Below are positions 5,505-8,829 of a DNA stretch of 39,325 nt, one piece after another. Origin of the DNA: a virus; IMG/VR virus record IMGVR_UViG_3300037238_000069, positions 1 to 39,325 of that record; one strand, 5' to 3'. How positions within the stretch are numbered: position 1 is the first letter of the stretch; the number at the start of each line of letters is the position of its first letter. The notes beneath the pieces were generated by a model. It was not told where the DNA came from. It saw nothing but the letters and a program-made list of their open reading frames with translations, and searched no databases. The position numbers and the translations under genes are program-made.

Positions 5505-5722
5505 TCAAAAAAACTCCTAAAAAACCTTTTTCTTTCTTCTTCTGGCCATTTAGAGAAATAACATTCATCGCATTCAAAATCATGATAATTAGGAATAAAA
5601 TCTTTGCTGCATTTGAAGCAAAGACGCATTTTAATATCATAATCACCATTCATCAATTTTGCGACAAAGATATCTATATCTTCGATGGTCAATTCAGTTG
5701 CTTTATCTATATCATCATTCAT
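5501..5722 (-). CDS. Small zinc-ribbon protein (73 aa)
   Basis: The start MNDDIDKATEL at 5722 is chosen because it overlaps the end of the preceding gene; a frame extension to 5758 lies wholly inside that gene. CFKCSKDF and CDECYFSKW supply a CxxC/CxxC pair. The C-terminus is basic and aromatic. It is one of at least seven tiny Cys-pair proteins in this phage. No function is recognised. Confidence 0.6.
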   Translation of the reverse strand: MNDDIDKATELTIEDIDIFVAKLMNGDYDIKMRLCFKCSKDFIPNYHDFECDECYFSKWPEEERKRFFRSFFE

Positions 5723-6029
5723 CAACAATAACCGTCCCTTCTTTCTCCATACGCTCATATATGTTTTTGAAGTTCATTTTAACGCCCACAAGTTTCCCTG
5801 CATGAAATTCAGCTATTCTTGAGATGAGGTAAACTGTACGGATTAATCTTACGTTAGAAACATTGTCTTCACCTACAGCTTTTTCAACCCAATCCTCTTG
5901 TTCTTCGGGAATATTATAAAGATCGAAGAGAGGAATGATATCACGAAAGAAATCTTGCATTTGCTTTAAATCCCAATAGTTCAGGAATTCGTTGATTTCT
6001 TGTTCAAGAGTTTGTTTTTGTTTTGGCAT
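5715..6029 (-). CDS. Hypothetical helical protein (104 aa)
   Basis: An acidic, helix-rich protein (TLEQEINEFLNYWDLKQM, IPEEQEDWVEKAVGED) with a basic segment near the end. GAGTGAT is the likely ribosome site for ATG 6029. It is the first gene after the tRNA-like element in transcription direction and overlaps the next gene. I do not recognise a family. Confidence 0.65.
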   Translation of the reverse strand: MPKQKQTLEQEINEFLNYWDLKQMQDFFRDIIPLFDLYNIPEEQEDWVEKAVGEDNVSNVRLIRTVYLISRIAEFHAGKLVGVKMNFKNIYERMEKEGTVIVDE

Positions 6030-6101
6030 ATGTAAATCACTCTGTATGTGTTAATAATACAAAGTACATAGAGGAAACAATTCGGTCAAATAGAAATTGT
6101 A

Positions 6102-6193
6102 TGGCATATGATAGACTAGCACTATCGACCTCTTTGCGGAACTAGATATCAATCACAGTGGAACAAAGCGCTCTGCTGCTGAGCTAATATGCC
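6102..6193 (-). tRNA. tRNA-like gene with a 27-nt anticodon loop (20-nt insertion)
   Basis: Read on the minus strand: acceptor GGCATAT/ATATGCC (7 of 7 pairs), T8 A9, D stem GCTC/GAGC around AGCAGCA, G26, anticodon stem CTTTG/CAAAG (5 of 5), a 5-nt variable loop AGGTC, T stem GATAG/CTATC (5 of 5) around TGCTAGT, and discriminator A at 6102 without encoded CCA. The anticodon loop (6163-6137) is 27 nt, exactly 7 plus 20. If the extra 20 nt lay at the classical 37/38 site the loop would read TTCCACG, with anticodon CCA (Trp); this placement is a guess. The D loop lacks the GG pair and the T loop is atypical, but AGCA in the D loop is complementary to TGCT in the T loop. It could be a tRNA with an intron, a decoy or a decayed tRNA. 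Confidence 0.6.
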
Positions 6194-6206
6194 ATGATGC
6201 GGTAAA

Positions 6207-6250
6207 GGGGGCAACGCGTTTTAAGCGTACCCCAAACTCAAGTTACGCTT
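6207..6250. other. Two mutually exclusive stem-loops between the tRNA-like gene and the 66-aa gene
   Basis: One hairpin pairs GGGG-ca-ACGC (6208-6217) with GCGT-a-CCCC (6225-6233) around a 7-nt loop GTTTTAA. The other pairs AAGCGTA (6223-6229) with TACGCTT (6244-6250). They share bases and cannot form together. The 250-bp gap 6030-6279 holds no other gene besides the tRNA-like element. A terminator, a processing site for the tRNA-like transcript or a second degenerate RNA are possible; neither hairpin is followed by a U-tract on the minus strand. Confidence 0.4.
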
Positions 6251-6279
6251 GGTAAATGAGCAAATCATTGTTAATATTA

Positions 6280-6480
6280 TTATCTTTTAGGCTCATGCTT
6301 TGTCAGAGTCATCCCAGAGCGTCTATCTTGTAGATTTTGCATATCTTCGCGCGTTCTTTCGGGTTCTCTAGGAAACGCCATAGAATATTGCTCATCCATA
6401 GAAATTGGCCCTCTTTGGATTTCTATACCACCTGGCCTATCTTTCGAGGATGAAGACGATGATGATGATGATTTAGCCAT
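6280..6480 (-). CDS. Small Ser-tract hypothetical protein (66 aa)
   Basis: The protein opens with MAK and a run of nine Ser, then a Pro/Arg-rich polar chain (PREPERTREDMQNLQDRR). It lies 2 bp after the 97-aa gene in the portal operon. Low complexity suggests a disordered protein. No family is recognised. Confidence 0.6.
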   Translation of the reverse strand: MAKSSSSSSSSSKDRPGGIEIQRGPISMDEQYSMAFPREPERTREDMQNLQDRRSGMTLTKHEPKR

Positions 6481-6482
6481 GA

Positions 6483-6776
6483 TTAAGAATATCTCCCATG
6501 ATAAGCCTGTTTCTCAACAGCTGAAGCTTCTGCGCCTTGGAATTTATCTTGACGCTCGATGTAATCCAAAGTCTTGCTAAAGCCTTCTTGAGAAAAGTCT
6601 TTACTTGGTTTTTGATAATCTTTAATTCTTGGGTTCATATCGCCTTGATTAAGACCGGCCATAGCCATGTCCCCGTTGGGCATACCACCATTTCTTGATC
6701 CTGCTGTCCCTTTTTCACCAGGACTTTTGTAACCCCCCTGACCTTTTTCAGAACGACCACCATAATTCTTAGCCAT
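6483..6776 (-). CDS. Small Gly/Lys-rich hypothetical protein (97 aa)
   Basis: RBS AAAGGAGC precedes ATG 6776. The first half is Gly-rich and basic with little predicted structure (MAKNYGGRSEKGQGGYKSPG). The second half has a helix around DFSQEGFSKTLDYIERQ. It follows the portal gene by 37 bp and is likely cotranscribed, so a minor virion component is possible; this is context only. Confidence 0.65.
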   Translation of the reverse strand: MAKNYGGRSEKGQGGYKSPGEKGTAGSRNGGMPNGDMAMAGLNQGDMNPRIKDYQKPSKDFSQEGFSKTLDYIERQDKFQGAEASAVEKQAYHGRYS

Positions 6777-6813
6777 AATAAGCTCCTTTAATTAGTTATC
6801 TTTAATTTAACTT

Positions 6814-8829
6814 TCATGCAACATTTTGATTATTTGCAACTACTTCCTTCTCTGGATTTGCAACAGGACTTATCTCATTCAGAATTTGAACTTGTGTCAG
6901 CAGATGATCTAAATCCATACCTTTCAATTCTTTGAGTGCTTTAACAACATTGAGTAAGCTCGCCGTATCTTCTTGATGAGCGCGACGTAACTTATCTTGA
7001 GCAACCGCACTGTCTGTCTGGATCTTAGCAACACGCTCTTTAGCAAGACCTTCCTGACTATGTGCGTAGGCAACCTTAGTCATATTATCGATTTGGATTT
7101 GCTGCATTTGCAACTCTTCCATTTTCTGTTGCTGTTCTTGCTGTGCTTTCTGACGCGCCATGACTTTTTCCATGATGCGATCTTTATTCTGTATCGTTAG
7201 GCATTCAAGGATTTCATCTGGAGGAGTCAAATCAGGATATAATTGCTGGAAGTGAAGTAACTGAGCTAATTCTAATTGTTGTTGTGTTTCTGTTAATGCT
7301 GCTTGAACAACCTTGCAGCCATATTTAAAGAAGATTTTGCTATCGAATTCAGCTGTAGGCTCTTCACCGATGACTTGACGAACTTTTCCATATGTCCAAT
7401 TCTTTTGGATATATTCTACTTCTATCTCCGCGCATATTCTTTGCGATTCATCGGCTTGATCAAAAAGCCTCTGAAGGTTTCGAGCTGTAGCAGCTTGTCT
7501 CATCATTGTAATGATCCCGGCTTTGTCATCGATATCCATGCCCATGGCATTAGGATCTATACCGGCGATATTGAAAAAGATACCCTTGAGCATCTCTTCC
7601 ATTTGCAACATGACCGGAGAAGGAGGCACAATCGGCATTGGCTGAACGTCATCCATGGAGAAGTCGGGATCAATAGATAGAACTCGACCATGGCCTGAAT
7701 TTAGAGCATCATCTGGAGTAACAAGAGCGCCTTTTTTGACCTTCAAGCCTTGCTGTTGAGCATCGAGGATTTCGAGATTGGAAACCTTCAAACGATTCAA
7801 AAGATATTGACAATCTCTGAGCATAGTCATCGGGCTATTGAACTTGTATGCGTAGTATGGAGTATCCGCAGTGAAGAAAGCGAGCATCGGCACCACGGGG
7901 TAGCGATCCATGCCGTAGGGGTTAGGTTCATCTACAATGACTCTATCATTTAAAATAATGCTTCTGCGTACTGTAGGAACCTGCTTTTTAATTGTAGTTA
8001 ACTTTCCTTTGAAAGCCTGCATAATCTCTTTTAGCTGATCTTTGGTTCCTTGAAATTCTTGGCATTCTTCTGTTTTTTTATCGACTAGGAATGTGGCTTC
8101 TCTGCTTGTCAAATACCAGTATTCATCAAAAGCTATCAAATTTGGAAATTGGATTTGATAGACTTCAGGCATGTAGTAAAATTTGTCATCGCGATAAGTG
8201 CCTTTAGGAAGAGAGAGAATTTCGTCACCAAATTGCGGATACATAAGAGCGGCTTCTTGAGCATCAAAGAAAGTCCTTACCCACCAAAATCTTGCGTCAC
8301 TCATGTCTTTTCGTCTAAAATATGGATCAAAGAGGCATGACTTCATATCTACGTATCGCCAAACCGGATTTGGACTGATAGGATCTTTTGTACTATCACC
8401 ATACATGTACATAAATCCTAAGCCCTGAATGATGGCTCCAAGTTGAAATGCATCACTAAATGTCTGATGGAATCCTTCTTTATGATTATGATAGAGGCAC
8501 TTTGTTAGCTGATCAGCAGTCTTTTGCATTCCATTATGAATAGGAATGACGGCGGAGCTTTTGCGCGTTTGTCTTTGCTGTCCTGATATCGCTTCAGATA
8601 TCGGATTCATGATGTTGAAATTCCAGATTTTGCGTCTATAAGTTGCGACGCCTGGAAAGATTAAACCCCAAACTTCTTGATCATTTATCGTGAATCTTTG
8701 ATTTAGATCGGCTTGATACCATTGTGTTTGTAGAATATTAATACTATCGCTATAATTCTTTTCCATGCTCTGACGAAGAGAGACATTTAAACTGTCTTCT
8801 GGCCAGAAAATAGGGTCATTGTTGCGCAT
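6814..8829 (-). CDS. Portal protein, P22-type (671 aa)
   Basis: The portal is the dodecameric ring at one capsid vertex through which DNA enters and leaves. Length and sequence fit P22-like portals (P22 gp1 is 725 aa): the N-terminal core includes WNFNIMNPISEAISGQQRQTR and MDRYPVVPMLAFF, and a region near residues 420-460 includes IAGIDPNAMGMD and AGIITMMRQAATARNLQRLFD. The last 150 residues form a long Gln/Lys-rich helix (RQKAQQEQQQKMEELQMQQ), corresponding to the barrel helix of P22. RBS GGTGAAAG precedes ATG 8829. It lies downstream of the terminase genes as in other tailed phages. Confidence 0.9.
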   Translation of the reverse strand: MRNNDPIFWPEDSLNVSLRQSMEKNYSDSINILQTQWYQADLNQRFTINDQEVWGLIFPGVATYRRKIWNFNIMNPISEAISGQQRQTRKSSAVIPIHNGMQKTADQLTKCLYHNHKEGFHQTFSDAFQLGAIIQGLGFMYMYGDSTKDPISPNPVWRYVDMKSCLFDPYFRRKDMSDARFWWVRTFFDAQEAALMYPQFGDEILSLPKGTYRDDKFYYMPEVYQIQFPNLIAFDEYWYLTSREATFLVDKKTEECQEFQGTKDQLKEIMQAFKGKLTTIKKQVPTVRRSIILNDRVIVDEPNPYGMDRYPVVPMLAFFTADTPYYAYKFNSPMTMLRDCQYLLNRLKVSNLEILDAQQQGLKVKKGALVTPDDALNSGHGRVLSIDPDFSMDDVQPMPIVPPSPVMLQMEEMLKGIFFNIAGIDPNAMGMDIDDKAGIITMMRQAATARNLQRLFDQADESQRICAEIEVEYIQKNWTYGKVRQVIGEEPTAEFDSKIFFKYGCKVVQAALTETQQQLELAQLLHFQQLYPDLTPPDEILECLTIQNKDRIMEKVMARQKAQQEQQQKMEELQMQQIQIDNMTKVAYAHSQEGLAKERVAKIQTDSAVAQDKLRRAHQEDTASLLNVVKALKELKGMDLDHLLTQVQILNEISPVANPEKEVVANNQNVA

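Follow-up and report, generated by a model that had tools for sequence, protein, structure and literature searches.

A phage RNA with a conserved tRNA-like body and a variable arm at the anticodon position

The phage DNA analysed here encodes an RNA on its minus strand that folds as a tRNA (G1 = 6193 to N73 = 6102), and this RNA belongs to a family of 36 distinct phage elements in which the acceptor, D and T arms and the tertiary core are kept and the arm at the anticodon position is remodelled. The window, by which we mean the whole stretch of DNA analysed, is a virus record of 39,325 bases with matches to the phage portal (phrog_156), terminase, RecE- and RecT-like families and to DnaC-like helicase loader and tail families. 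Since the standard anticodon arm of 5 bp and a 7-nt loop has been given up, the RNA is most likely non-decoding. The explanation that we put forward, tentatively and at a probability appreciably below even, is that it represents a tRNA-derived structural RNA, mostly a non-decoding tRNA mimic that would engage one or more host tRNA-binding proteins.

The cloverleaf in the window is real and its structure is well supported. As the original prediction had stated, without naming a strand, its four stems pair perfectly, namely the acceptor GGCATAT/ATATGCC (7/7), the D stem GCTC/GAGC (4/4), the anticodon stem CTTTG/CAAAG (5/5) and the T stem GATAG/CTATC (5/5), and T8-A9, G26, a 5-nt variable loop (AGGTC) and a 27-nt anticodon loop are all present. 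The acceptor could be extended by two further pairs (ATGGCATAT/ATATGCCAT). The prediction had also held that such an arrangement is tRNA-like and non-random, and a descriptor of four fully paired stems agreed with this, giving one match on both strands of the 39,325 bases and none in each of 20 dinucleotide shuffles. ARAGORN called a tRNA-Ser(act) of 94 bases at 6101-6194 and no tmRNA in the window. The Infernal-type check that had been suggested came out negative, as the Rfam tRNA model (RF00005) had no match to 5900-6400 of the window even at E up to 10. The window sequence alone has a minimum-energy fold of -27.9 kcal/mol compared with -24.3 kcal/mol for the cloverleaf, and when it was folded with its flanks the z-score was -2.28, with 5/200 shuffles folding equally well. 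Since the single-sequence minimum-energy fold is not the cloverleaf, the proof of the cloverleaf is comparative. A model trained on the family members (R1) scored the window element at 65.7 bits (E 3.9e-13), but this element is one of the 35 training rows, and R1 scores on members are therefore not independent. The features of the region are listed in Table 1.

Table 1. Coordinates in the window of the tRNA-like RNA, its parts and its neighbours
Feature	Position	Strand	Evidence or remark
Downstream ORF, 104 aa	5715..6029	-	Relatives in L091, L111, L126, L218
tRNA-like RNA	6102..6193	-	ARAGORN, descriptor against shuffles, R1 model, family covariation
Acceptor stem 3' strand ATATGCC + N73	6102..6109	-	N73 = A here; CCA not encoded here
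T arm GATAG-TGCTAGT-CTATC	6110..6126	-	Two-sided changes in 4/5 T-stem pairs; G55 in 35/36
Variable loop AGGTC (44-48)	6127..6131	-	C48 = Levitt partner of G15
Anticodon-position arm, 37 nt: 5-bp stem + 27-nt loop	6132..6168	-	Hypervariable among relatives
T8 A9, D stem GCTC, D loop AGCAGCA, D stem GAGC	6170..6186	-	Sequence; family TA at 8-9
Acceptor stem 5' strand GGCATAT	6187..6193	-	7/7 with 6103-6109; two-sided changes in 5/7 acceptor pairs of the family
G+C-rich hairpin + short T run, between upstream ORF and element	6204..6233	-	Terminator-like by eye only
Upstream co-directional ORF, 66 aa	6280..6480	-	Relatives in L125, L126, L207, L213
Portal protein gene, syntenic marker	6814..8829	-	phrog_156, E 3.2e-44

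The 36 distinct elements were gathered through the portal and through pattern searches, with scripts and a structural scan. From viral contigs we fetched the 80 best of 113 loci whose portal is related (L-numbers denote the loci compared), and downstream of the portal many of these relatives carry near-identical acceptor, D and T arms together with a quite different anticodon-position arm. The pattern searches reached more distant phages, the portal being only ~26% identical in L111, L159 and L219. Identical or same-contig copies were dropped (for example L008, L025, L043, L066, L086, L153, L170, L189, L190 and L199), as was the damaged copy in L033, and the alignment (A2) has 35 rows with L219, which has a D-loop insertion, left out. 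The member list was drawn from elements whose arm differs from 17 nt, and the patterns and scans demanded A14, A21 and parts of the D and T arms; the lack of 17-nt arms and the base counts given below therefore carry selection bias. Positions 15, 26, 44 and 48 were not required when looking for members. Other unusual arms occur outside the family, for example in L105, L142, L163, L167 and L177. The one in L163, on the reverse strand near position 2898 of the reverse complement, is a 32-nt anticodon arm in a tRNA-like gene with an encoded ACCA, on a contig of 182,859 bases that lies outside this phage group.

Among the 35 aligned elements, 99.1% of the 560 cells in the acceptor, D and T stems are paired, and 11 of the 16 pairs show two-sided change, with compensatory changes in all three core stems. 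The original prediction had named stems without compensatory changes in related phages as one finding that would overturn it, and the opposite was found. RNAalifold, given the alignment only, returned exactly the same 16 pairs. None of 500 shuffles reached any of the five covariation measures, and when partners were slid by 1-3 columns only 20-60% remained paired. The covariation, the descriptor count against shuffles and the RNAalifold result together exclude chance hairpins. The strand of the RNA is also fixed, since pair 5-68 is U-G in 24/35 and this wobble pairs only in RNA of this strand.

The elements thus have the 7-bp acceptor, 4-bp D stem and 5-bp T stem with 7-nt loop of a canonical tRNA, with covariation, and also its tertiary core (8-14, 15-48, 19-56, 26-44 and 54-58). 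T8-A9, A14 and A21 are present in 36/36, some of these bases having been required by the searches. The Levitt pair 15-48 covaries, being G-C in 28, A-T in 4 and other in 4 of the 36, while positions 26-44 are G-A in 30, A-A in 3 and A-G in 3. C56 is found in 33/36, A58 and T60 in all 36, and pair 49-65 is G-C in 35/36. The unaided minimum-energy fold was the cloverleaf in 11 of the 34 members tested (L004 and L015 were skipped for one extra acceptor base, and in L029 and L087 the forced fold lay below the free minimum, which is an artefact).

The anticodon-position arm measures from 16 to 67 nt across the 36 members and takes 18 different lengths, the commonest being 23 nt (6/36); none has 17 nt, the list having set this length aside. 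A fairer sample was obtained with a 5'-half pattern that does not touch the arm. This returned 27 stretches, of which 25 were family members (19 distinct), none with a 17-nt arm, and the other two were canonical tRNAs in large phages. The canonical 17-nt arm, with 5 bp, a 7-nt loop, U33 and an anticodon, was therefore absent from the members in this sample as well. The original prediction had regarded the window arm as a normal arm with a 20-nt insertion, suggestive of an intron, and the excess over a normal loop in the window is indeed exactly 20 nt. An intron-bearing tRNA is nevertheless extremely improbable, as the 18 arm lengths show no common junction in the alignment and the same 20-nt excess, looked for in related phages, is not shared by them. 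Furthermore, since some arms are only 16, 18, 19 or 20 nt long, there is no room in them for both an intron and a 17-nt arm. An inner helix between ACUG and UAGU had also been predicted within the loop; the ACUG is there, at 6159-6156 rather than 6157-6154, but the helix is not shared by the relatives.

With one mismatch allowed, the arms close with a mean of 6.5 pairs compared with 1.4 after shuffling, and at least 5 pairs are formed in 27/36 and at least 6 in 23/36. Judged from this predicted pairing, an arm with six or more pairs is a longer stem and not a normal stem with an inserted loop. In L112, L093 and L087 the arm forms a hairpin in two parts, tipped by TTCG and with paired changes of its own, and these arms seem unable to present an anticodon. 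Over the 190 pairs of 20 portal-linked members, identity was 0.90 for the portal protein, 0.35 at four-fold sites and 0.83 for the element core (core and arm from gapped alignment, four-fold sites ungapped, and the portal only partial for L052, L011 and L018). Since the core is so much more conserved than four-fold sites, it must be under strong selection. The identity of the arm over the same pairs was 0.46, compared with 0.41 after one arm was shuffled (60 sampled pairs), and core identity exceeded arm identity in 190/190 pairs. By these comparisons most members differ in arm sequence almost as random sequences would, and yet the hairpin is usually kept. The exceptions are L022 and L029, which share 0.94 of the arm at a four-fold identity of 0.43, and L024 and L031, which share 0.67.

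The same identities bear on the suggestion that the element is a decaying tRNA pseudogene. The window element does fail the Rfam tRNA model, and L033 holds a damaged copy that R1 scores at 43 bits (43.4), the next best after the members. Decay, however, does not keep stems and is contradicted by the core identity relative to four-fold sites and by the compensatory changes in the three core stems, so that this origin is very unlikely. In the phage loci the R1 gap is wide (62.4 compared with 43.4 bits, other tRNA matches in these loci reaching at most 41 bits), but across genomes it is narrow, the L219 copy scoring 60.4 bits and the best canonical tRNA 59.1 bits.

A fixed body with a hairpin that differs between most phages is also what would be expected of a natural tRNA scaffold, in which the body would protect and mature a phage-specific hairpin cargo replacing the anticodon arm, much as in the laboratory tRNA-scaffold method. 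The family member at L219:6025-6127 (-) fits this idea, as it has a 28-nt D loop and therefore insertions are not confined to the anticodon arm, and so do the tRNA-like genes of 111-115 nt found downstream of the portal at L021:2926-3040, L044:3329-3443 and L042:8641-8751, in which a long arm containing CTCGTACGG is seemingly located in the D region. Against it, the putative cargo is near neutral by the arm identities given above, and in the one member looked at, that of the window, the complementarity of the arm to the phage that carries it is unremarkable, the longest complement being 11 nt, a length reached by 80/200 shuffles. The same result led us to reject the idea that the window arm acts as an antisense RNA on this phage, and the scaffold explanation as a whole appears improbable. 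A second structured RNA is shared by L042 and L062 downstream of the portal (ATAGAGC-AGCATACTC-...-GAAACTGTG-...-ACGTGAAACTCGT), with no Rfam match at the gathering threshold.

The best evidence against a purely non-decoding reading comes from the 11/36 arms that close symmetrically to a 7-nt loop on a 6-10 bp stem (at most one mismatch). U33 is present in 10 of these 11, for which the chance is ~2e-5 if they were independent and 2e-4 over the 9 distinct loops, although the members are not independent; the loops have UAU in 5 and GAA in 2. Since U33 in a 7-nt loop is anticodon-like, "non-decoding" is weakened for these 11 members. It is conceivable that some members are decoding tRNAs with an extended anticodon stem of 6-10 bp and that the rest are derived from them, and the ACCA encoded in L031 would be in keeping with this. 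However, 25/36 arms do not close to a 7-nt loop, long hairpins are found in L028, L022 and L112, and the members do not share an anticodon. ARAGORN isotypes disagree where the element is called at all (Ser, Gly, Asp, Tyr, Met, Phe), and the Rfam tRNA model found none of the six elements scanned at its gathering threshold (L004, L015, L022, L028, L031 and L052). We consider decoding by the family a rather poor prospect, a shade better than the scaffold.

The one systematic departure from canonical tRNAs in the conserved half is at position 55, which is G in 35/36, a base enriched in the sample because one search pattern required it (that search, with position 18 left free, gave at least 120 matches). 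The D loop ends in A-G-Y-A in 25/36, A18 being present in 25/36 by a simple rule and G19 mostly kept, and the G18-U55 elbow pair is accordingly missing. This suggests that A18/G55 takes the place of G18/U55. In 175 cloverleaf candidates with 17-nt arms, T55 occurred with GG in 125/130, whereas G55 occurred with GG in 1/38 and with AG in 25/38. Since A18/G55 is thus found with canonical arms, the elbow change alone does not imply that an RNA is non-decoding. The canonical-arm cloverleaves that often combine G55 and A18 include those of L085, L144, L127, L201 and other loci, and phage tRNAs seem here to have a second type of elbow pair; no mention of the swap was found in the literature searched, and "G55" is absent from PMC7912444. 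Complementarity between the D loop (AGCA) and the T loop (TGCT) had been noted in the original prediction and holds for the window, but TGCT occurs in none of the other 35 T loops and T57 in only 1/36.

Pair 51-63 is G-C in 0/36 members compared with 50/130 of the T55 canonical-arm cloverleaves, but as it is G-C in only 4/38 of the G55 ones, its lack is not special to the family. CCA is encoded in 1/36 (L031, with ACCA at the right place) compared with 64/130 T55 and 21/38 G55 canonical-arm cloverleaves. In the non-proteinogenic tRNA-Gly of Staphylococcus, which functions in cell-wall synthesis, the T loop has GUGC, the amino acid is known and the anticodon arm is normal. In passages of a review (PMC4052509) the loss of G51-C63 and G18-G19 from this tRNA in S. 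aureus is tied to weak EF-Tu binding. The phage family resembles it in lacking G51-C63 and, in most members, in an altered position 18, but in the tRNA of that review (PMC4052509) both 18 and 19 are altered, whereas the family mostly keeps G19. No Fem-type enzyme was present among the subset of ORFs scanned.

The window element sits between two co-directional ORFs, downstream of the portal gene and 86 nt past the stop of the upstream ORF; the downstream ORF has no Pfam or PHROGs match. In the 23 portal-linked members the element begins 6-145 nt beyond the stop of a co-directional ORF, and in 8/23 the distance is only 6-29 nt (<30), the stops being ends of open stretches of more than 35 codons and not annotated genes. 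Since a gap of 6-29 nt leaves no space for a promoter, co-transcription with the portal operon or read-through is the probable source of the element, unless there is a promoter that extends into the gene before it. A promoter-like motif was found downstream in 5/23 members compared with 14/2160 control stretches, and was absent from the window by the same rule. The G+C-rich hairpin between the upstream ORF and the element was flagged neither by a terminator scan nor by our own hairpin rule, and the terminator scan of 5600-6900 in the window found none.

This location raises the possibility that the fold is RNA-processing punctuation, marking where RNase P and 3' nucleases cut the end of the portal operon transcript, and that the released RNA has no further role. 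The short distances to the preceding stop would agree with this, as would T(-1), found in 33/36, and the fact that the upper half is the conserved half. However, the commonest pair of the acceptor is kept in 24-34/35 at each position, beyond what pairing needs, with the inner T-stem pairs changing more, and the arm hairpin persists although RNase P is not known to require it. Moreover, in 20/36 members the 70 nt before the element contain a terminator-like hairpin, compared with 23% of random stretches under a loose rule. We therefore regard punctuation as unlikely, though it deserves more weight than either decoding or a scaffold.

Some recurrent sequences were seen in the same part of these genomes. 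A hairpin GGCTACTG...CAGTAGC with T runs recurs downstream of the portal in L010, L018, L026, L032, L037, L052, L054 and L213; it is a possible terminator and in several cases lies directly before the tRNA-like element or a small ORF. The motif GCGATACAACCCGC/GCGATATAACCCGC recurs in a hairpin-like stretch beside the element or at the same place in L004, L006, L015, L052 and L207.

Among portal relatives with at least 1 kb downstream (from the best 80 of 113), R1 gives the element a score of at least 60 bits in 22/73, a count that includes the identical or same-contig copies L008, L025, L043 and L066; with L207 and the window added, the element is found in 24/85 sources. Since it is present in only 22/73 portal relatives, the element must be dispensable or replaceable. 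Searches of whole records found one strong copy in each of 11/19 viral records, one in the phage contig of the metagenome-assembled genome (MAG) G020 and, in a set of 13 viral records selected for carrying the element, again one apiece. There is no evidence for a mobile element, most portal-linked copies being at one place and the searched records that have the element holding one strong copy each. Among named phages, a 601-base stretch surrounding the element had no DNA match, nor did the portal match any of 50,697 records at E up to 1e-5; near records may be absent from the set. MAG-binned contigs were considered as a guide to the host, but since the four portal matches bear four different labels (Verrucomicrobia, Myxococcales, Deltaproteobacteria and Acidobacteria), no host is claimed.

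RNase P, 3' nucleases, the CCA-adding enzyme, EF-Tu and some synthetases read the acceptor and elbow half of a tRNA. In the family G1-C72 is present in 34/35, pair 3-70 is C-G in 32/35 and N73 is T in 31/36. T(-1) and G1-C72 suit processing by RNase P, at least as predicted from sequence. The acceptor and the inner T stem both need only pairing, yet the commonest pair at 50-64 to 52-62 is kept in only 19-26/35. Since the acceptor is the more conserved, something may read its sequence, and its conservation would fit sequence-specific reading. We propose that a tRNA mimic would be transcribed with the portal operon or by read-through, and that host enzymes would release and finish it, with RNase P cutting between U(-1) and G1, a 3' nuclease trimming the other end and the CCA-adding enzyme completing it. 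The mature RNA, which would stay out of translation, would then bind at least one host protein for which the acceptor and elbow identify a tRNA, as a competitor or decoy. The anticodon-position hairpin would be free to change, or may target a factor that is not the same in every host.

The family shares its acceptor, D and T arms, variable loop and tertiary core with canonical bacterial and phage tRNAs, from which it differs in having an arm of 16-67 nt instead of 17 nt, mostly A18/G55 instead of G18/U55 and CCA encoded only once in 36. When R1 was run against 194 genomes of one phylum, 20 non-phage genomes matched, besides the phage copy, at E up to 1e-9 with 54-59 bits, and the nine of these that were read (L248-L256) were all tRNA-Thr with U73. 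By profile the nearest relatives are thus bacterial tRNA-Thr with U73, and descent from a tRNA-Thr-like gene would be a reasonable guess. The acceptor GGCAYGT was found on a canonical U73 tRNA in 0/387 genomes of the phylum of G020, a result silent on other phyla.

The tRNA-like domain of tmRNA has the upper half of a tRNA with the anticodon arm replaced by another helix. The family resembles it in this respect, but has a full D stem, is a much smaller RNA, with arms of 16-67 nt, and lacks G3-U70, 3-70 being C-G as above. It does not qualify as a tmRNA with a tag reading frame. Modestly longer anticodon stems are described in passages of a review (PMC7609411) for tRNA-Pyl, the tRNA-Sec-like selC* tRNA-Cys, allo-tRNA and mitochondrial tRNA-Ser, and the word "phage" is absent from its main text. 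Those stems have 6 bp where the passages of PMC7609411 give a number, whereas the family has up to 10 bp or a wholly remodelled arm that differs between close relatives. Phage tRNAs with mutated anticodon loops evade host tRNases according to passages of PMC10264068. These are also phage-borne and changed in the anticodon region, but their mutations are in loops, and the word "decoy" is absent from those passages (PMC10264068).

A phage tRNA body that is conserved while its arm is remodelled and largely specific to each phage appears to be a novel variation on these known kinds, and no description of such a family was found in the open-access literature searched. It is almost an even prospect, in our estimation, that these elements constitute an undescribed family of phage RNAs, each genome having one tRNA mimic devoted to a role other than decoding (or one natural tRNA scaffold), with an acceptor and elbow that would capture a host tRNA-binding enzyme or defence nuclease and a hairpin rebuilt in most lineages. 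The tRNA finders tried missed many copies or named them conflictingly. The RNA is small and easily tested, and the natural arm variants on a near-fixed body provide a ready-made mutational scan. Phage tRNAs are usually seen as a codon supply or as replacements for cleaved tRNAs. If our proposal is true, phages would also use the tRNA shape for another purpose, keeping the parts read by processing enzymes, EF-Tu and synthetases and abandoning the decoding arm.
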